In this document: positions 2 to 31,137 of the stretch, piece after piece
How the letters are laid out: each line of letters starts with the position of its first letter
Numbering within the stretch: the stretch's first letter is position 1
Source of the DNA: Phycisphaerae bacterium RAS1
GTDB taxonomy: Bacteria > Planctomycetota > Phycisphaerae > UBA1845 > Fen-1342
Assembly (NCBI GenBank): GCA_007859745.1
Contig: SMLU01000002.1
Location: 302,942-366,941 of the forward strand
Direction: 5' to 3'
DNA: 64,000 nucleotides
Position numbers and translations under genes: made by a program
The notes under the pieces: generated by a model
Database searches by the model: none
The model's input: the letters and a program-made list of their open reading frames with translations, nothing else
What the model was told of the DNA's origin: nothing

Positions 2-316
2 CCGTGGATGTACTTCAACGGGAAGATCGACGAGGTCGAGATTTTCAGCCGCGCCCTCACTCCCGCGGAGGTCTGGGAGATCTACGACGCCAAGCAGACG
101 GGCAAGTGCCGGCCGGACTATTCCGGCGGCGACACCAACTGCGACGGCGAGGTGGATATTCTGGACATCAACAGCTTCATTCTCGCGGTCGGCGACCCGG
201 CGGCCTACGCGGCCGCGTATCCGGGCTGCAATGTTCGCGCGGCGGATGCCAACGAGGACGGCAGCGTCGACGTGCTGGACATCAACCCGTTCATCGCCCT
301 GCTGGCGGGCGGTTAG
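2..316 (+). CDS. Dockerin-tailed LamG-type secreted protein, C-terminal part
   Basis: The gene enters from outside the window; only about 104 C-terminal residues are visible. The first part (WMYFNGKIDEVEIFSRALT) is the typical last strand region of a LamG/concanavalin-like jelly-roll domain. A short linker (TGKCRPDYSGGD) leads into two EF-hand-like dockerin repeats: NCDGEVDILDINSF and [14 protein letters not shown], ending LLAGG and a TAG stop. Such tails in planctomycetes sit at the C-terminus of secreted proteins and are thought to bind calcium; whether they bind a cohesin is unknown. The real start lies upstream of base 1, so the ATG at 8 is internal. Confidence 0.85.
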   Translation, partial: PWMYFNGKIDEVEIFSRALTPAEVWEIYDAKQTGKCRPDYSGGDTNCDGEVDILDINSFILAVGDPAAYAAAYPGCNVRAADANEDGSVDVLDINPFIALLAGG

Positions 317-347
317 CAGCCCGCGGAAATGGAAGCGCTTTGCCGAC

Positions 348-423
348 CGTAGCGTCGGACCTTGGCTTCTGACGGTGTCTTCCGCGCGATGTCACACCGT
401 CGAATACAGAGGTCCGACGCTGC
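348..423. repeat. GTAGCGTCGG-family inverted repeat
   Basis: Left arm CGTAGCGTCGGACCT at 348-362 is mirrored by AGGTCCGACGCTGC at 410-423. The same arm sequence is found inside hypE (42903-42982) and in the hydrogenase protease gene (48918-48946), and as half-copies near 18399 and 32965. Confidence 0.75.
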
Positions 424-473
424 ACCCCCTTTTCAACGGGTACTCTGTCGCGGCACAGACCGCGGGCTTGCAT

Positions 474-576: not shown

Positions 577-727
577 AGCGGCCGGGCCGACGGCGTCTGC
601 CAAAAACTCCGCTGACACTCGAGTCCTGCCCGCGGCCTACGTGGCCCGAAATTCCGTATCCGCCGCCGTGGGCGGCGCGGTAAAGTGCACCGATCGGGTC
701 CAATTCGCCCCTGTTCGGAGACCGATT

Positions 728-2227
728 GTGCTTGCATCTCGCTTCGCCGCGCCCGGGCTCTTCCTGGTCGCCTGGCTTCTCGCGGCCGACGCCCCGGCTA
801 CCAGCCGCAACAACGGCCAGAACGGTTACACGCGCCAACCGACGCCGCTGCTGGTTCCCGTGCCGATCGGGCATGTCTTGCAGGCGGTCGTCATGCAGCC
901 GCACTCAACGATCCGACTGCGGAATAACCGCCGCCTGACGGACACGACCGTCACGAGCCTCATACAGACCAGCCTCGTCAGCAACGGCCAGCCCAAGTAT
1001 GAGAAGATGGTGCTGCACATGGCGCAATGCTACGGCGGCGGGTTCATCGACGAGCTGGAGGACGCCGCGGTGCTGACGAACTTCTCGATCAACACCAGCT
1101 CGTTCTGGGAGCACGTTTCGTACGGGCAACTCAACGCGGGCGGCAACCCGCGCAATTATCACAGCCACAGTTGGCGCGAGCAGGTCAACACGCCGAACAC
1201 GCCCAAGGCGATGCTGGCGTCCTACAGCGATTCACTGACAGCCCAGATTTACAACATCGCCCATCCGGACAAGGGCAACCAGATTCTGCGAAACCTGGAG
1301 CGGCCGCAGTTCTTCAGCCGTCCCAACGCCGCCGATGATCACACGCTCACGCGCTCCGCCGACCAGAATGTCGCGCTCATCTTCGTCGGCGAGGATCGCG
1401 AGCGGAACAACCCGCGCGACACCCGCCATTTCCGGGATGCCGGCCGTATGTACGACACGCTCCGCGCTTACGGCTTCACGGACGCGCAGATTTCCTTTCA
1501 GTACGTCGACGGCACGACCCCCGCCGGCGGCAACGACGCCCGCATCGACGGCGCCGCCTCGCTGCTGACCTATCTCGGTTTCATCAGCGGCGCAGGCGTC
1601 GCCTGCGGCGATCAGAACGACTTCGTCTTCATCTGGACTTCCGGTCACGGCGGCACGTACGCCGATGTCCAGGGAATCGTCCAGTTGCTCCCCATCGGCG
1701 CCGGCGTCGGAGTCGCGGAGGCCGAGTACGACCTGCCGCTCTGGGGAGGGTTCCTCGACGCGGCGATTGGCCCGTGGGCGCCCTACGCCGGCGACGATCC
1801 GATCCTCGAGATGAGTGACTTCACGCTCGCCCCCGGGGACGCGCTGCAGGTCTTTCTGAACGACAGCTTCATTGGCTCCATCGGCGACTCGCAGCCGGTT
1901 GAGTTGCCGTTTTCGCCGTCATTGCTGACGCAGACGCAGAATCGACTCCGATTCGTGGGCACCTCGCCGCAAACCGAGATTCGGCGCTTCAGTCTGCACC
2001 AATTCACGAACACGGCGCCGGTGGATGAACCGTCGCCGGGCGACATGAACTGCGACGGCGCGGCGGACATTCTCGATATCAACGCGTTCATTCTGGCCCT
2101 GATTGACCCGTTTGCCTACGCGGCCCAGTTCCCCGGCTGCGACATCAACAACGGCGATCTCAATGGCGACGGAAGCGTGAACGTGCTGGATATCAACCCG
2201 TTCGTGGCGCTGCTGGCGGGGGGCTGA
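728..2227 (+). CDS. Secreted caspase-like protein with dockerin-like tail
   Basis: 499 residues from a GTG start chosen because GGAGA lies six bases upstream and a signal peptide follows directly (VLASRFAAPGLFLVAWLLAAD). The middle has the pattern of a caspase/legumain-like fold: a first strand ALIFVGEDRERNN, a segment DAGRMYDTLRAYGF, then a hydrophobic strand ending in TSGHGG, with the candidate catalytic His at residue 307. I do not see the DxC-type strand with a catalytic Cys in the following 100 residues, so peptidase activity is doubtful. A dockerin-like tail ([28 protein letters not shown]) closes the protein. Longer upstream starts at 362 would run through repeats and are rejected. Confidence 0.75.
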   Translation: MLASRFAAPGLFLVAWLLAADAPATSRNNGQNGYTRQPTPLLVPVPIGHVLQAVVMQPHSTIRLRNNRRLTDTTVTSLIQTSLVSNGQPKYEKMVLHMAQCYGGGFIDELEDAAVLTNFSINTSSFWEHVSYGQLNAGGNPRNYHSHSWREQVNTPNTPKAMLASYSDSLTAQIYNIAHPDKGNQILRNLERPQFFSRPNAADDHTLTRSADQNVALIFVGEDRERNNPRDTRHFRDAGRMYDTLRAYGFTDAQISFQYVDGTTPAGGNDARIDGAASLLTYLGFISGAGVACGDQNDFVFIWTSGHGGTYADVQGIVQLLPIGAGVGVAEAEYDLPLWGGFLDAAIGPWAPYAGDDPILEMSDFTLAPGDALQVFLNDSFIGSIGDSQPVELPFSPSLLTQTQNRLRFVGTSPQTEIRRFSLHQFTNTAPVDEPSPGDMNCDGAADILDINAFILALIDPFAYAAQFPGCDINNGDLNGDGSVNVLDINPFVALLAGG

Positions 2228-2581
2228 TGACAGGCGCGGGCGGGGCCGAAGGCGGTCAAGCGCGATGGCGAGCGGCGGATAAGATCGGCCCCACGATGGC
2301 CTGGGCTGAAGGTGCGCAAGGTGCGCATTTTGTGTGAGGCCTACTTGCGCACCTTCGGCGGGCGGGGGGTTGCGGCGGGTTTTTATGGGGCCGGACAGCG
2401 AGGGTGCAGGGGTCATCAATGATTCTCCGGCGGGCCGCGCGGGCCCCCGGGGCCCGCGATGTCGGAGTGTATCTAGCATTCGTAGGAAGTCGAGCAGCGG
2501 CACGCCCGCCCCGCGGTGCCCTCTTGTCGGCGTGCTCGCCGAGTGTGACTGCGCCGAACCGGCGTTGGCCGCGACCAATCG
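2228..2581. other. Gap between convergent genes with inverted repeats
   Basis: No gene seen in these 354 bases. An inverted repeat GCTGAAGGTGCGCAAG (2305-2320) with CTTGCGCACCTTCGGC (2344-2359) could form a 16-bp stem between the two convergent genes. A second GC-only palindrome (about 2436-2459, CGCGGGCCCCCGGGGCCCGCG-like) follows. Neither has a T tract, so they may act as bidirectional transcript ends or be repeats. Confidence 0.5.
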
Positions 2582-5500
2582 CTACAGCATCGTCGCCAGT
2601 CGCGCCTCAAGCCCGGCGATCTCATCAGCGTTCAGCCCCGCCATGGCATACAGGATGCGGTCGATGAGATCTTGCAGTGGCTGCGCGGCAGGATCGAGAG
2701 CGGAGCGCTCGACGCGCGCAATCTCGCCGCGCGCGGCCTCGATCGCCATGATCCGACGCACCAGCTCGGCGATTACATCCTGCACACCGAGCGGGAACGG
2801 AGCGTTATTCAGCTCGGGCGCTAACAGCTGGGCCGCGTCCTCAATATCCTCGGCGTTTACGGCCGCCATTACGCTCTCACTGATCTTGGCATCGGCATCT
2901 GTGCGACCGGTGGCACAAACCGGGCACGGGAGGTTGTAGAGCTGATAATGGCTGACGTGGGCGTTTGTGCTGCCGAGCCGAAAATACCAGTCCGCGAGCT
3001 TGCAGTTCAGTATCGCAAGCACGAAGTACAGGTCGATGGTTGATTTGTGCGCGGGGCAGTAGTTGACCGTGTGATTCGTAAACTCGCCCGCCGATAGATA
3101 TGCGGCGATGATCCGTCGAAAGTTGTTCTGTGGGCTCGATTCCTGGAGCACAACGCGCGGTTGGCGATGGTGAAATGACTTGCTTGACTCATCCGCGTTC
3201 TGCAGAAATTGAGGAACGTCCAAGTAGAGGTTTTCACCCTGAGATGCTTCTCGCACGCTGTATAGGCAGACGGCGGCGCCACGCGTAACAAGCTTGCCGC
3301 CCCGCTCCCGGAGATTCCCAGCGCGGCGCTGAATGGTCTCGTTTACTTCGCCTTGAAAGAACTCGCAGAATCGACTCAGTCGACTCAGCCGCCCGCTTCC
3401 CATGATCCGCACCGCCAGATCCCAGTCCTCCTGCGAACAGCTCACAATCGCGCGATTCGACGGATCGTAGAGCGGTATTTGTTCCGTCGTCAGTTTCAGG
3501 GAAGGCGATGACTCGTCAATGCGGTCCGCCGGGTGTTGGCGCGACCTGAACGGCGTCCGCCGAACGCTCTCATCGGCCGTCTTCAGCAGCGTAAAGACGC
3601 AGGTCGAGAGCTTGGCATCCGGAAAGACGCGCCGCGCCGGATCGTCCTTCTGCGGAAACGCCTCAACTGCGGTGAGCGCGCCGGCCTCCAGCATGGCCCG
3701 TCGCAAGTCGGCCGCCTGGTCGTCGCCCAGGAGCGCCATCGGCACGATGAACCCGAATCGCCCGCCATCGGCGAGCAGTTCCAGCGCCCGGCAGATAAAC
3801 AGCTTGTAGAGGTTGTTCTTGCCGCGCCGCGAAGGCGTGTACGTCGCGTCGTGCTCGATGAATGACTTCAACGCCGACAGGTCGCGACCTGTTTCCCGCT
3901 CCGAAAGGACATCGTAGGGCGGATTCCCGATGATCGCATCGAAGCCACCCTCGGCGCGCCTGCCGGTCAGGTCGAAGAACGCCTCCGGAAACGCCAGCTC
4001 CCAGTGAAACGCCCGCAGCGGTGCATCCGCCGCGGCCGCCCGCGCTGCCTGGAACCACGGTTGGATCTTCAGCGCCTCGAACCCGCCGGAACCGGCCAGC
4101 GCAAGGAGCGCCGCGTCATAATTCGCGGGGGAGACGCGATGCTCCTCGGGTGCGAAGAATGTGGAGCACCACAGATCGCCGATCGCACTGAACATGTCGC
4201 ACAGCGGCGTGAACGCCAGGCGATACATGTTTTCTTTGGCCTTGATCTGTGCCGGTGTTTGGGAGGGCGTGGCGCGAATTTCGTGCAGGGGCCTCAGCAG
4301 GATCGGAAGGCGCTGCTCCACCTGCTGCTTGAAAATGTTCGCCGTCCCGCCGGGGAAGTCGGGCAGCGAGCCGAGGTCGGTAATCCGGGCGCCGACCAGG
4401 CTGTTTCCGGGGCGGAGGTGATGCTCCAGGAACGTCAGCGGCTCGCTGGTGGACACCGACTCCAGCCAGAGCGCCAGCGTCGCCAGCTCGACCGCCATCG
4501 GGTTGAAGTCGACGCCGAAAATGCAGGACTCGACCACGCGCCGCTTCCAGTACACCAGCGTGGGGGCGTCGCCGACGGCGGGGTCCAGGGCCGGGTCCGA
4601 GGCGTGGGGGTTCGTGGCGAGCTCTTCGGCCAGATACTGGCAGGCGCGCACCAGAAAATGCCCCGAGCCCATGGCGGGGTCTAGCACGCGCAGGCGCAGG
4701 ATGCGGTCGTCGAAGCCGGCCCGCAGCGCGTCCAGTTCCTTCTGCAAGGCGTCGCGGTTAGCCCCCCGCGCGCGTCGAAGCTTGGTCTCCGTCTGCGCGA
4801 TTTCGGCGTTCAGGCGCTGGTCGATTTCACGGCAGAGCGGACCGAGCGTGTTTTCGACGATGTAGCCCACGATCGGATCGGGCGTGTAGTAGGACCCGCT
4901 CGCGCGGCGCTCGCCCTTGTCGGTTTGCAGATACACGCGGCCGCGCTCGTAGCGCAGGCCGGTTTCCTCCCAGCCGGGCGGCGTCGGTTCGGAGCGCGGG
5001 ACGATCCTCTCCGAGCGGCGCGCGCCGCGCCGCTCGCGGATGACCACCATGGGCGCGGTCGCAAAGTGGGGGCGCAGCTCCAGCAGACCTTCGTAGATGC
5101 TCCCGAGGTGCTGAATCGCCAGGTCGCGGTAATCGACGCGAAACAGCCCGCGCTCCGGATGCTCCGGGTCGGCGGCGCGGCCAAGCTGGTCGATCACGCG
5201 GGCCAGGTAGCGGTCCGGCAGCGCCGCACGGCTCAGGAATTCGTGCCGCTGCGCGTCAAACAAACCGCCGTTGTATGCCGGGACGGCGTAACGCGCGTGC
5301 CCATGGTCGATCAGGTCGAACAGCGAGAGGAGATCCTGCCAGATCGCTGTCTGGCCGAGGGCGTACTCCGGATCCCGGCCGTGCGCAACGCGGTCGAGCA
5401 CGTCGGCGATTTCATCGCGATGCCGGGCGAGGCTCCGGTTTCGCGTATACAGGTCATTTCGCCGATAGGGCAGCAGCGACCGGTCCTCGGCGTACATGAT

Positions 5501-9350: not shown

Positions 9351-11915
9351 ATGATGCCAGGAGTGCGCGTTCGCAGGCGGCGCGCGGCCGTTCTGGCCGC
9401 CGGTGTGCTGATTCTCGGCATCGGCTCCGAGGCGGCGCTTGCACAGTATCACTACGTCTACCGCGGGCAACCCGTTCCGCTCGCACTGCGCGCGGACCTG
9501 CTGGCCTCTTTCGCCGCCGACGGTGACGAAGCGGCGACCGTGCTGCGGAATTTCGGCGCAGCCCCGGCCGAAGCCGACTGGGCCGGGCCGCGCGGCTGGT
9601 CGATGTTCACGGCGCTGAGCTCAAAGGCGCGCCCGGAAGACGTTGAAGCTCTCGTCGCCGCGGCGGCCGATATGCCCGCCGTCGAATTCGCCTCACCGGT
9701 GTTCATCGACCGGCTGGGTGGCCCGCTGGTCGTTACGCCCGACATCCTGGTCGCCTTCGACCCGACTGTCCCGCCCGACGAGCGGCGGCGCTTGCTTGAC
9801 CGCGTCGTCGGCGGGCACCTGCTGGACGAAAACTGGGCCCGTATGGAGGGCGTCTATCGCGTGCGCAGCCTGAGCCGCAACGGCTTCGACGTCTTGCGCG
9901 AGGCCAATGCGCTCAGCATCGAGCCGGGCGTGCGATTCGCCGAGCCGGACATGATCTTCAGCGGCCGTGCGTCGCTGATCTGCACGCCCAACGACTCGCT
10001 CTACCCGTCTCTCTGGGGGCTGAACCAGGCGTCCGACGTGGACATGGACGCACCGGAAGCCTGGCAGATCACGCGCGGTTCCGCGGCGATCCGCGTGGTG
10101 GTCATCGACGTCGGCGTGCAGCAGGACCATCCGGACATGAATCAGGCGCCCGGGGCCGATTTCACCGGCTCGGGCGGAGGCGGCGGCCCGGTCAACCAGT
10201 GCGACAATCACGGCACCGCGGTAGCCGGGTGCGTCAGCGCGACGATCGATAACGCGCTGGGAGTCGTCGGCCTCGCGCCGCTCTGCCTGTCGGCGTCAGC
10301 CCGCTGCTTCAACAGCAACTTGAGCTGCAACGGGAGCTGGAGCGGTCAGGCGAGCTGGACGGTGGCCGCGCTGGACTGGGCCCAATCCAGCGGCGCACGC
10401 GTGACCAACAACAGCAACTACTATGGCTTCACCTCCTCCGCCATTGAGCAGAAATACAATGACACGCGCAACGCGGGCATCGTTCATTTCGCGTCGGCGG
10501 GAAATGACTCCAGCGCAACGATCGGCTATCCAGCGAGCCTGCCGACGGTCAACGCGATCGCGGCTCTTTCGCAAAGCGGCGCACGCGCGAGCTTCAGCAA
10601 CTGGGGCACCGGCCTGGATTTCTCCGCGCCCGGCGTCGGCATCTGGTCCACGGACCGCACCGGAAGCGATGGTTACACCGCTTCCGATTACGCCAGCGTT
10701 CAGGGCACGTCGTTTGCTTCACCCTACAGCGCGGCCGTCGCGGCGTTGCTCCTGTCGTACAACCCGGGCCTCTCTGCCCCGCAGGTGGAATCCACCATGG
10801 CCGCCGGCTGCACCGACCTGGGAACCGCCGGCTACGACACCGACTTCGGCTGGGGCATGGTGAACGCCTACGCCACGTTGCTTCAGTTCGCGTCGCCGCC
10901 CGCGCCGCCGGGGCCGTTCTCCCTGATGTTGCCGGAGGAAGCGGCGGTCGCCGTAGCGGATCGGCCGGTGTTCATGTGGTCGGCGTCCGCGGGAGCGGTC
11001 GAGTATTCTCTGACGGTCGATGACAACGCAAACTTTGGCAGCGTCGACTACTCAGCCGCAGGCATCGCGGGCACGTCGCACCAGCCGCCGCAGGCGCTGG
11101 AGCAGAACCGCACCTACTACTGGCGCGTCACTGCTGTCAATTGCATCGGACAGGCCGGCGCGACCCCGGCGAGCGGATCGTTTTCCACCTGGCTGGACTG
11201 CAATGACAACGACGTGCCCGACGCAGTCGATATTTCCGGCGGCTTTTCGCAGGACTGCAATAAGAACGGCCAGCCGGACGAATGCGATCTGGTCGCGGCG
11301 TTCCGGGCTTCGTCGGCGGACATGACGCCGATCAATCGCAATGTGTCGCAGACGTTCAGTTACGCAGCGCGGCCGGCGGTCGCAAGCGTCTCGCTCGCAT
11401 TCTCGGCCTTTGCCGACTTGAATTTCGCCAGCGAGTCATTCGACGTCCGAATCAACGGCGTCTCGGTTGGAACGGCATTCGGCCCCGCCGGGCAGGACTG
11501 CCCGCTGACGCCGAGCCAGGAGACGCTGATGGTCCCCGCCGCCACGTACAACGCGCTGATCACGACCGGCGGCCCGACCGATCTGACCGTTGTCGCCAGC
11601 ACCGGCGTCGATGAGACGTGCGCCCCGGCGTCGTGGGTGTCTGTGATCATCACGTACGTGGGCGTTGCGACCAGCGCCGACGAGAACAGCAACCAGACGC
11701 CGGACGAATGCGAGAATCCGTTTGCACTCGGCGACATGAACTGCGACGGAAACATCGACGTGCTGGATATCAACCCGTTCATTCTGGCGCTCTCCGATCC
11801 GATTGCATACGCGGCGCAGTATCCGACGTGCGACATCAACAATGGCGACATCAACAACGACGGAAATGTGGATGTGCTGGATATCAATCCGTTTGTGGCG
11901 CTGCTCGTGGGTTGA
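9351..11915 (+). CDS. Secreted subtilisin-like (S8) serine protease with dockerin-like tail
   Basis: 854 residues. Signal peptide ends EAALA. A prodomain-like region of about 200 residues precedes the S8 domain, whose triad can be read: Asp253 in VVVIDVGVQQDHPD, His287 in DNHGTAVAGC and Ser454 in QGTSFASPYSAA, with the oxyanion Asn385 in ASAGND. A fibronectin type III-like segment follows (YYWRVTAVNCIG), then an Asp-rich DCNDNDVPDAVDI...DCNKNGQPDECDL linker, another beta-rich region and the dockerin-like tail. It likely degrades extracellular protein. ATG 9351 is preceded by GGGAGAA; an adjacent ATG at 9354 is also possible. Confidence 0.92.
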   Translation: MMPGVRVRRRRAAVLAAGVLILGIGSEAALAQYHYVYRGQPVPLALRADLLASFAADGDEAATVLRNFGAAPAEADWAGPRGWSMFTALSSKARPEDVEALVAAAADMPAVEFASPVFIDRLGGPLVVTPDILVAFDPTVPPDERRRLLDRVVGGHLLDENWARMEGVYRVRSLSRNGFDVLREANALSIEPGVRFAEPDMIFSGRASLICTPNDSLYPSLWGLNQASDVDMDAPEAWQITRGSAAIRVVVIDVGVQQDHPDMNQAPGADFTGSGGGGGPVNQCDNHGTAVAGCVSATIDNALGVVGLAPLCLSASARCFNSNLSCNGSWSGQASWTVAALDWAQSSGARVTNNSNYYGFTSSAIEQKYNDTRNAGIVHFASAGNDSSATIGYPASLPTVNAIAALSQSGARASFSNWGTGLDFSAPGVGIWSTDRTGSDGYTASDYASVQGTSFASPYSAAVAALLLSYNPGLSAPQVESTMAAGCTDLGTAGYDTDFGWGMVNAYATLLQFASPPAPPGPFSLMLPEEAAVAVADRPVFMWSASAGAVEYSLTVDDNANFGSVDYSAAGIAGTSHQPPQALEQNRTYYWRVTAVNCIGQAGATPASGSFSTWLDCNDNDVPDAVDISGGFSQDCNKNGQPDECDLVAAFRASSADMTPINRNVSQTFSYAARPAVASVSLAFSAFADLNFASESFDVRINGVSVGTAFGPAGQDCPLTPSQETLMVPAATYNALITTGGPTDLTVVASTGVDETCAPASWVSVIITYVGVATSADENSNQTPDECENPFALGDMNCDGNIDVLDINPFILALSDPIAYAAQYPTCDINNGDINNDGNVDVLDINPFVALLVG

Positions 11916-12067
11916 CAACCCGTCAGAGAATGGTAACCCGGTCGCCCTCGACCGGTTGTTCATCGGAGCGAGGTGGGGCAGGTCGCGGCCGTGTGCGACC
12001 TGCCATGCAGGGTAGCGGAGGGGCAGGATGCAAACCGTCGCAACCCGTCCTAATTGTTGGAAGGACG

Positions 12068-18304: not shown

Positions 18305-18489
18305 CAAAGCCGCCCGCTGCCCGCTGACAGCCCGCCGAAGAAACCATAGCATCGGCCCGCTGTGACCGACGGATGTACGAAAACACCGCGAAAACCGCCG
18401 TCGGCCAAAGAGGGCGGACGCTACGTCCACTTTTTGAACCAGCCACCGCCGTCCTGCGGCGCGGGCGCGGCCATCCTGGAAAAGGAAAA

Positions 18490-28603: not shown

Positions 28604-29307
28604 GGTTGGCTCCTTTGTGTGCTTGCGTGTCGGTCCGTCTGACCTGTTCAACGCCGGCGGCGCGGGGATATTGCGTTACGCGCGCGGGCCTCCGGAGCCG
28701 CAGGTTTCAACCCGCGCGCCGTATCCCGGCAAACCCGCGACCCAGCGGACTCGCGGCGCGCCGGCTAAAGCCAGCGGCTCCGGGGGCAGAGTCGTTTGGG
28801 CGAGAGAAACGGCCGCCAGATTTGTCATGCACCCGGCGGTCCGCATGGGGTGCGTGACAGTTGTGGCGGGCACGCGATTCATCCGTCCCCGTGGCCCGCT
28901 TGAAACGGCGGATTCGCACCAACGGTGCGTCCCAGCCACAGCCCAGGGCATCGCCCTGGGTTGCGGACGCGCAAGACGCAAAGCCCTGAAGGGGCGCGCC
29001 AGCCGCTGCGTTCGAGCGCCCTTTCAGGGCTTGGTTAGAGCGCGACCCAGTTCCCGGGGTGTTGCCCCGGGCTCTGACTATCATCGGCCCCTTTGGGGCA
29101 AAGAGACGGCCGCATGATCACATCCTCGCGCAGCACCTCGCTGCGGGCCGTCGGAGTGCGCGCTCCCGGCCGGCAGAAGTGTCAGGCACCCTCCGTATAC
29201 GGGTATACGACAATTCCGTTGCTCGGAGTGACTCGTGCGGTGTAGGATTGCGCCGTCGCCGTTCTCCGCGGCGCCGCGCGAGGGCGCCGGCAGTTCGGAG
29301 GGTCGCC
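28604..29307. other. 700-base gap rich in short palindromes
   Basis: No real gene is visible. Hairpins include GCCCTGAAGGGGC/GCCCTTTCAGGGC (about 28981-29030), CCCAGGGCATCGCCCTGGG (about 28944-28962), GGGGTGTTGCCCCGGG (29056-29072) and GGCCCCTTTGGGG (29084-29097). Such CCCAGGG...CCCTGGG palindromes are often repeated in planctomycete genomes (recollection). The promoter of the following gene must be in the last 150 bases. Confidence 0.5.
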
Positions 29308-31137
29308 ATGTCACGCCATTCGTTTGCGTGTTGGACGCTTGCGTTGCTGCTGGCGATGAGCCGGCCGGCGGCCGGCCAGTCAGACTCTCAAGCCGTGGGG
29401 TTCGTTCCGCACGAAGCGCCAAGCCGACATGGACACGTCAGAGCCGTCAACCCCGGCCGCTCGCGTCCGCCGGAGACGCTTCGTGTCCAACCCTACAAGA
29501 GCGTTCAGGTCAACGTCGACGCCAACGGCGATAACATCATCGACGACGCCGCGAACGAACCGTCGATCGCGGTTGATCCGGTTAATCCGCAGCGGATCGT
29601 GATCGGCTGGCGGCAGTTCGATTCGATCTTGTCCGATTTCCGACAGGCCGGATACGCGTACAGCCATGACGGGGGCGAAACGTGGACGTTTCCAGGCGTG
29701 ATTCAGCCGGGCGTTTTTCGCAGCGATCCGTGTCTGGGCGTTTCGCCGGATGGAAGCCGGTTCTACTACTACAGCCTCACCATGGACCCGCTTTTTCGCT
29801 ATTGGCTCTTCACGTCATTGGACGGCGGAGTGACGTGGGGGTCGGCTGTCGATGCCTATGGCGGCGACAAGGGGTGGATGGTCGTGGATCGCACGGATGG
29901 ACCAGGTCGCGGCAACATCTACGCCTACTCCAATGCTGATGACTACTTTGTCCGGTCCTTGGACGGCGGGCAATCATTCGACGCGCCAACACCACCACCG
30001 ATTAACACAGCGCCTCAGTGGGGAACATGCACCATTGGTCCGGACAGCTCGGTCTATCTATTCGGCACGGCCCCCGCGGAAACATCGCCGACGTTCTACT
30101 CGGCGCGCTCCAGCAATGCATGGAACGCCGCCGAACCACCTTCGTTCGAACTTCGTCGTACGTGCGACCTGGGTGGCCGCAACCGGAATCTCGCTGCGTA
30201 TCCAAATCCCGGAGGCCTGTCGGGCATGCAGTGGATCGTGTGCGACACGTCGGACGGACCCTACCGCGGCTACCTTTACGCCGTCTCGCCGATCTATTCG
30301 TCGGGCGCGTCGCCGCCCGACGCCCTGGACTTGCACTTCATCCGCAGCGTGGATCGAGGCGCCACGTGGAGTCAGCCCAGACGGATCAACGACGATCGGC
30401 CAGGCGACAGCGCGTGGCAGTGGTTCGCGACAATGTCCATCTCTCCGGGCGGGCGGCTTGATCTGGCGTGGTGCGATACGCGCGGATTCAGCGAGGACAT
30501 CCTGCACCCTTCGGCGTCGCGCGTCTATTACGCGTGGTCAGGCGACGCGGGCAGCACATGGTCGCGCGGCGTGCCGGTCAGCCCGGTATTCAGGACACCG
30601 CTAGGCTACCCGCAAGGCCAGCTCAAGATGGGAGATTATGTCCACATGGTCTCCACCGAGGATGCCGGCCACCTCGCCTACGCGGCGACCTTCAGCGGCC
30701 AGCACGACGTCTACTACGTTCGCCTCGGCGACTGCAATAACAACGGCGTGCATGACGGCCTCGACGTCGCCCGCGGCGCGTCGCTTGACGCCAACGGCGA
30801 CGGCGTCCCCGACGAATGCGGACACTTCATGGCCGACCTCAACTGCGACGGCTACGTGAGCGCTCTCGACGTGAATGCGTTCACCGCCGCCGTCCTCGAT
30901 CCGGACGGATACGCCGCAACCTACCCCGGCTGCGACATCCTCCTCGGCGACGCCAACAGCGACGGTGAAACGAACGTGCTCGATATCAACTGGTTCGTCG
31001 GGTTGCTGATCGGGGCGGCTGACACCCCGTCGAAAAAGTGTAGCCCGGCCGCCCTCGGCCGGGTCTTGGTCGGGGAATTCGCCTACTTCGCGCGGCTTCG
31101 TCGCGTTTTTCAACGGGCTGCTGACACCCCGTCGTGA
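29308..31137 (+). CDS. Secreted Asp-box (sialidase-like) protein with dockerin tail and repeat-derived extension
   Basis: 609 residues, ATG preceded by CGGAGGG. Signal peptide ends RPAAGQ. At least four Asp-box motifs of sialidase/Vps10-type propellers are visible: SHDGGETWTFPG, SLDGGVTWGSA, SVDRGATWSQP, SGDAGSTWSRG. A linker DCNNNGVHDGLDVARGAS then a dockerin-like tail (NCDGYVSALDVNAF, NSDGETNVLDINWF). Unlike all its relatives the protein does not stop after LLIG. It continues 34 extra residues (AADTPSKKCSPAALGR ... AADTPS) through an insert flanked by a 15-base direct repeat. No catalytic sialidase residues (RIP motif) are seen. Confidence 0.82.
   Translation: MSRHSFACWTLALLLAMSRPAAGQSDSQAVGFVPHEAPSRHGHVRAVNPGRSRPPETLRVQPYKSVQVNVDANGDNIIDDAANEPSIAVDPVNPQRIVIGWRQFDSILSDFRQAGYAYSHDGGETWTFPGVIQPGVFRSDPCLGVSPDGSRFYYYSLTMDPLFRYWLFTSLDGGVTWGSAVDAYGGDKGWMVVDRTDGPGRGNIYAYSNADDYFVRSLDGGQSFDAPTPPPINTAPQWGTCTIGPDSSVYLFGTAPAETSPTFYSARSSNAWNAAEPPSFELRRTCDLGGRNRNLAAYPNPGGLSGMQWIVCDTSDGPYRGYLYAVSPIYSSGASPPDALDLHFIRSVDRGATWSQPRRINDDRPGDSAWQWFATMSISPGGRLDLAWCDTRGFSEDILHPSASRVYYAWSGDAGSTWSRGVPVSPVFRTPLGYPQGQLKMGDYVHMVSTEDAGHLAYAATFSGQHDVYYVRLGDCNNNGVHDGLDVARGASLDANGDGVPDECGHFMADLNCDGYVSALDVNAFTAAVLDPDGYAATYPGCDILLGDANSDGETNVLDINWFVGLLIGAADTPSKKCSPAALGRVLVGEFAYFARLRRVFQRAADTPS
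31018..31134. repeat. In-frame insert with 15-bp flanking direct repeats
   Basis: GCTGACACCCCGTCG at 31018-31032 and again at 31120-31134. The 87 bases between start AAAAAGTGTAGCC and end CGCGTTTTTCAACGGGCT, so CCCGTCGAAAAAG and CGTTTTTCAACGGG form inverted ends. Removing one repeat plus insert (102 bases) restores a stop right after the dockerin. Confidence 0.75.

Follow-up and report, generated by a model that had tools for sequence, protein, structure and literature searches.

The dockerin gene and the element at its end

The locus lies in a 64,000-nucleotide stretch of the genome of Phycisphaerae bacterium RAS1 (hereafter the window, whose numbering is used throughout). It comprises a gene for a BNR-repeat/dockerin protein, the present open frame of which spans 692 codons from its longest start on the plus strand (29059–31137), although translation may in fact begin further downstream. 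Near the end of this frame an exact 15-base direct repeat, GCTGACACCCCGTCG, is present at 31018–31032 and again at 31120–31134, an offset of 102 bases with 87 bases between the copies. Such a pair is not a matter of chance, since exact repeats of at least 15 bases occurred in only 0.06% of simulations (P ~0.0006; 5000 stretches of 401 bp each with the dinucleotide make-up kept). The original prediction correctly recognized the exact repeat, the 87-base segment with inverted ends between its copies, and the insertion of a mobile element with inverted ends that lengthened the dockerin frame through to the stop at 31135–31137.

The extent of this element has to be redrawn. Searching the genome revealed six other copies with 93–99% identity, and the matches start within the supposed direct repeat. 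Six of the seven copies, that of the window included, are full, while one (L007) is truncated and has lost one end. All full copies are exactly 98 bp long, show 0–3 differences from their consensus and share the ends CAGCCCGTTGAAAAA...TTTTTCAACGGGCTG. In the other full copies, the outer part of the terminal inverted repeat is formed by the 10 bases before AAAAA, where the element had been thought to begin (at AAAAAG), and the left copy of the 'direct repeat' is therefore mostly element. In the window, the 98-bp element (CACCCCGTCGAAAAA...TTTTTCAACGGGCTG) occupies 31023–31120 on the plus strand, between CTGA at 31019–31022 and CTGA at 31121–31124. Its left terminal inverted repeat, CACCCCGTCGAAAAA (31023–31037, plus strand), contains two substitutions, both within the outer 10 bases (CACCCCGTCG vs. 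the consensus CAGCCCGTTG), while the remaining 88 bases equal the consensus, as does the right terminal inverted repeat (31106–31120, minus strand). Between both ends, a REP hairpin of the GTAG type (GTAGCCCGGCCGCCCTCGGCCGGG, 31040–31063, plus strand) and a short second hairpin (GCGCGGCTTCGTCGCG, 31090–31105, plus strand) are found; a scan detected no intrinsic terminator in the element. Beyond the right CTGA, the flank repeats the left 10 bases of the element, CACCCCGTCG (31125–31134, plus strand), so that the 15-base repeat is made up of one chance base, the 4 bases of the duplicated CTGA and these 10 bases. Being short (98 bp), non-coding, present in seven copies, bounded by 15-base terminal inverted repeats and sharing its ends and duplication length with autonomous insertion sequences (IS), the element is a non-autonomous MITE.

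Dockerin-like C-terminal domains number at least 150 in this one 5.5-Mb genome. Among 89 tails sampled from it, 76 stop 0–5 codons past the conserved end, most of them at +1, which agrees only roughly with the claim that all relatives stop just after the dockerin. Removing 102 bases does restore a stop, as had been proposed, but it lies six residues past LLIG and leaves an unusual tail. If the GGGG run were two Gs shorter, the frame would end at the TGA within the left CTGA (LLIGG*), which is the usual form; the corresponding sequences are CTGATCGGCGGCTGA at another dockerin gene (L155) and CTGATCGGGGCGGCTGA in the window gene. We infer that the gene originally ended at this TGA and was put into another frame by the gain of two Gs. 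Other dockerin frames of the genome are extended as well. At one of them (L172, G000:C1:637961-638143, minus strand), a REP-like palindromic insert right after LLAGG lengthens the frame, while at eight further loci (L181, L236, L257, L259, L267, L268, L272 and L285) a dockerin-like domain is followed in frame, with no stop, by RHS/YD-type sequence (…WDAENRL…).

Duplication length and the parent insertion sequence

The copies in the genome of the window, as well as full-length IS copies with the same ends in genome G023 (same family, other genus), carry 4-bp repeats on both sides; most of these are YTAR, and some contain one mismatch. Similar results were obtained for 28 paired elements from other genomes: exact 4-bp YTAR duplications were present in 23, and identity extends just 0–3 bases beyond them. 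These 4-bp flanks set the boundaries of the window copy given above. CTGA is one base off the YTAR consensus, while TTGA/TTGA was seen once among the copies. In contrast, a 15-base repeat was absent from all other copies, the very outcome that the original prediction had named as speaking against it, and its 15-bp target-site duplication has to be replaced by the 4 bp of CTGA.

The same-ended IS copies of G023 are 1450–1455 bp long and encode a transposase of 456 aa with DUF772 and DDE_Tnp_1 domains, both above the Pfam cut-offs. Judged by these two domains, the parent IS belongs to the IS5/IS1182-type DDE superfamily. The best match of the transposase is the NCBIfam IS1182 model, but its score of 169.8 bits falls below the cut-off of 270, and the IS is consequently not filed as a member of the IS1182 family. 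Among 27 genomes of this family, 7 encode relatives of this transposase. Neither such relatives nor a full-length helper IS were detected in the genome of the window. A different DUF772 IS is present in this genome in eight nearly identical copies (L412-L419; left end GAGAGTGAGAATAAATC); it was considered as a helper and rejected, as its ends are unrelated to those of the 98-bp element. A wider scan found these ends among records with the labels Planctomycetota, Verrucomicrobiota, Deltaproteobacteria and Pseudomonas, whereas a GTDB pattern scan for the interior of the 98-bp element gave no match outside the genome of the window.

The insertion and the ten bases beyond it

Taken together, the locus is very probably the product of a 98-bp MITE with the ends of a DUF772/DDE IS (IS5/IS1182-type), which inserted with a 4-bp duplication of CTGA, and of a secondary event that gave rise to the 10-base identity. 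The ends, the constant length of 98 bp, the copy number, the 4-bp duplications and the same-ended full IS were all observed, and the register of the left end is exact (CTGA, then 10 bases, then AAAAA). However, the left end departs from the consensus at two positions that both equal the right flank, and a plain 4-bp insertion leaves them unexplained. The one-base deviation of CTGA from YTAR and the failure to detect a full-length helper IS in this genome likewise count against this scenario. A transposase acting in trans would have joined the 98-bp unit into CTGA and thereby duplicated these 4 bp, the TGA of which probably served as stop codon. With a gain of two bases in the GGGG run, the reading frame would have continued through the element and thus lengthened the protein. 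The additional 10-base identity would stem from a later local event, either an old related end combined with short-range copying or a copy of the left end placed across the element.

Two other explanations of the insertion have to be weighed against this one. An element reaching from AAAAAG to CGGGCT with a genuine 15-bp target-site duplication would agree with an exact repeat whose length exceeds that expected by chance. Yet the other copies possess 10 further inverted-repeat bases before AAAAA together with 4-bp flanks, and the left 10 bases in the window fit that inverted repeat at 8 of 10 positions in exact register, which renders this scenario highly improbable. Even less probable is that the whole unit moved in the manner of ordinary REPs, by means of a RAYT-type transposase (Y1 tyrosine transposase): in its favor, the hairpin within the unit is of the GTAG REP kind and arrays of this REP enclose a RAYT-type gene, but the outer ends and 4-bp duplications fit a DDE-type IS, and the conserved inverted ends, with their matching 4-bp flanks, lie outside the REP.

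The insertion is ordinary in kind, and the adjoining 10-base repeat is its sole unexplained local detail. The identity of CACCCCGTCG between left end and right flank is unique among the elements examined. Within the window, at least 8 of 10 bases match the left end after 0.26% of the YTRR sites, and a target that resembled the element by chance is therefore unlikely. We favor an origin either from an older element end at the site with subsequent homogenization or from a later templated duplication. The former fits to the left end, where both departures match the right flank, as short-range conversion would produce; an older end at the site is plausible as well, because related ends begin exactly at other dockerin stops and elements can abut via a 4-bp spacer, which is all that separates neighboring elements at L115 and L355. 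A templated duplication following the insertion explains the ten bases almost equally well, although taken by itself we propose it only tentatively: replication might have switched between the CTGA copies and placed a copy of the element's left 10 bases in the right flank, the ancestral sequence being CTGA|TGATTGGGG. This would account for the exact identity without a lucky target, and the element ends can pair, which brings the CTGA copies together (fold z -3.2, minus strand). However, it requires two prior substitutions that both fell into the outer 10 bases, while the remaining 88 kept the consensus. The uninserted site is expected to read CTGATGATTGGGG in the case of a later duplication and CTGACACCCCGTCGTGA in the case of a pre-existing end. 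No empty allele was found, the nearest homologs being ~52% identical, and none of 60 relatives contains a full copy of the element.

Two further candidates were discarded. A second TGA after dockerin stops, considered in support of templated duplication, showed no enrichment among 76 tails, and the resemblance of upstream dockerin sequence to the right end of the element (family D2) is attributable to chance by a rough count.

Gene ends, nested REPs and known systems

Several related elements are placed exactly at the stop codons of genes, and the duplication rebuilds the stop. For example, a decayed element with ends of the same type and a different REP pair (313–440, plus strand) starts at the TTAG with which another dockerin gene terminates (GGT TAG|CAGCCCG), while the decayed left half of the 98-bp element (38 of 51 bases; 11912–11966, plus strand) sits right behind TTGA, the stop of yet another. 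Based on ORF length and GC3, a likely gene end was called at the 4-bp site for 5 of 10 related elements in the genome of the window, compared to 5 of 41 YTAR sites within the window and, at other loci, 5 of 59; in addition, an element (L004) is located behind a dockerin gene whose last bases are the duplicated CTAG. Targeting is not claimed, as the sample is small and selection removes insertions inside genes. It is rather doubtful that this class of elements prefers stop codons beyond the YTRR motif, with Y plus TAA, TAG or TGA as target and a 4-bp duplication that rebuilds the stop. If it did, such an element could spread along gene ends, those of dockerin genes foremost, and leave the protein unharmed. 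The placement at stop codons hints at a simple explanation for the tolerance of such insertions, as the duplicated target restores the stop. A literature search for cases in which an insertion restores the stop codon gave no direct precedent.

At 18324–18440 of the window, a decayed element whose end is similar follows CTGA (CAGCCCGCCGAAGAA); it is located ~20 bases past a dockerin stop. A same-ended element of 469 bp (L051, G000:C1:1408008-1408488) has CTAG on both sides and lies between two convergent open frames, each of which ends in that CTAG.

The hairpin GTAGCCCGGCCGCCCTCGGCCGGG recurs alone many times in the genome (as short matches), and its arrays flank a Y1 (RAYT-type) transposase gene on both sides (C1:699,246). 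Another Y1 gene (L074) has REPs of a second type at its flanks, and that REP type also occurs inside other same-ended elements. Thus a GTAG-type REP of RAYT arrays rides, as the inner hairpin, within a DDE-type miniature element, and two unrelated mobile systems are nested. The abundant palindromes of the genome are GTAG-type REPs around RAYT-type genes, and one of these REPs is a passenger inside the 98-bp element. The suggestion that the insertion is a clue to how the palindromes of this genome move in general is not supported, and they should be reread with a 4-bp DDE-type signature in mind, not a 15-bp one. Another aspect concerns the site of one such array: in the region of G000:C1:699246 (L075, ORF 667-3231, minus strand), the Y1 transposase gene and its REP arrays lie apparently in frame inside a gene for glycine dehydrogenase (subunit 2-like), the whole forming a single frame of 854 codons in which enzyme sequence precedes and follows the transposase part.

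Compared to known systems, the element resembles MITEs of the IS5 superfamily in being short and gene-free and in sharing inverted ends and a 4-bp YTAR-type duplication with a transposase-bearing IS; the YTAR target motif is documented for IS5 (PMC10359306). It differs by the RAYT-type REP hairpin inside, by a genome in which no helper IS was found, and by the extra 10-base flank repeat of one copy. The IS1182 family provides the transposase model closest to the same-ended IS (170 bits), albeit below the cut-off of 270. With the GTAG REP/REPtron system (PMC3733652), the inner hairpin shares the GTAG tag, the many copies and the arrays around a Y1 gene, features that apply to this hairpin only. 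The study of that system (PMC3733652) describes REP dimers located within longer palindromes, as well as REP ends that can provide ORFs with TAG stops. In contrast to that system, the whole mobile unit at this locus possesses DDE-type ends and 4-bp duplications.
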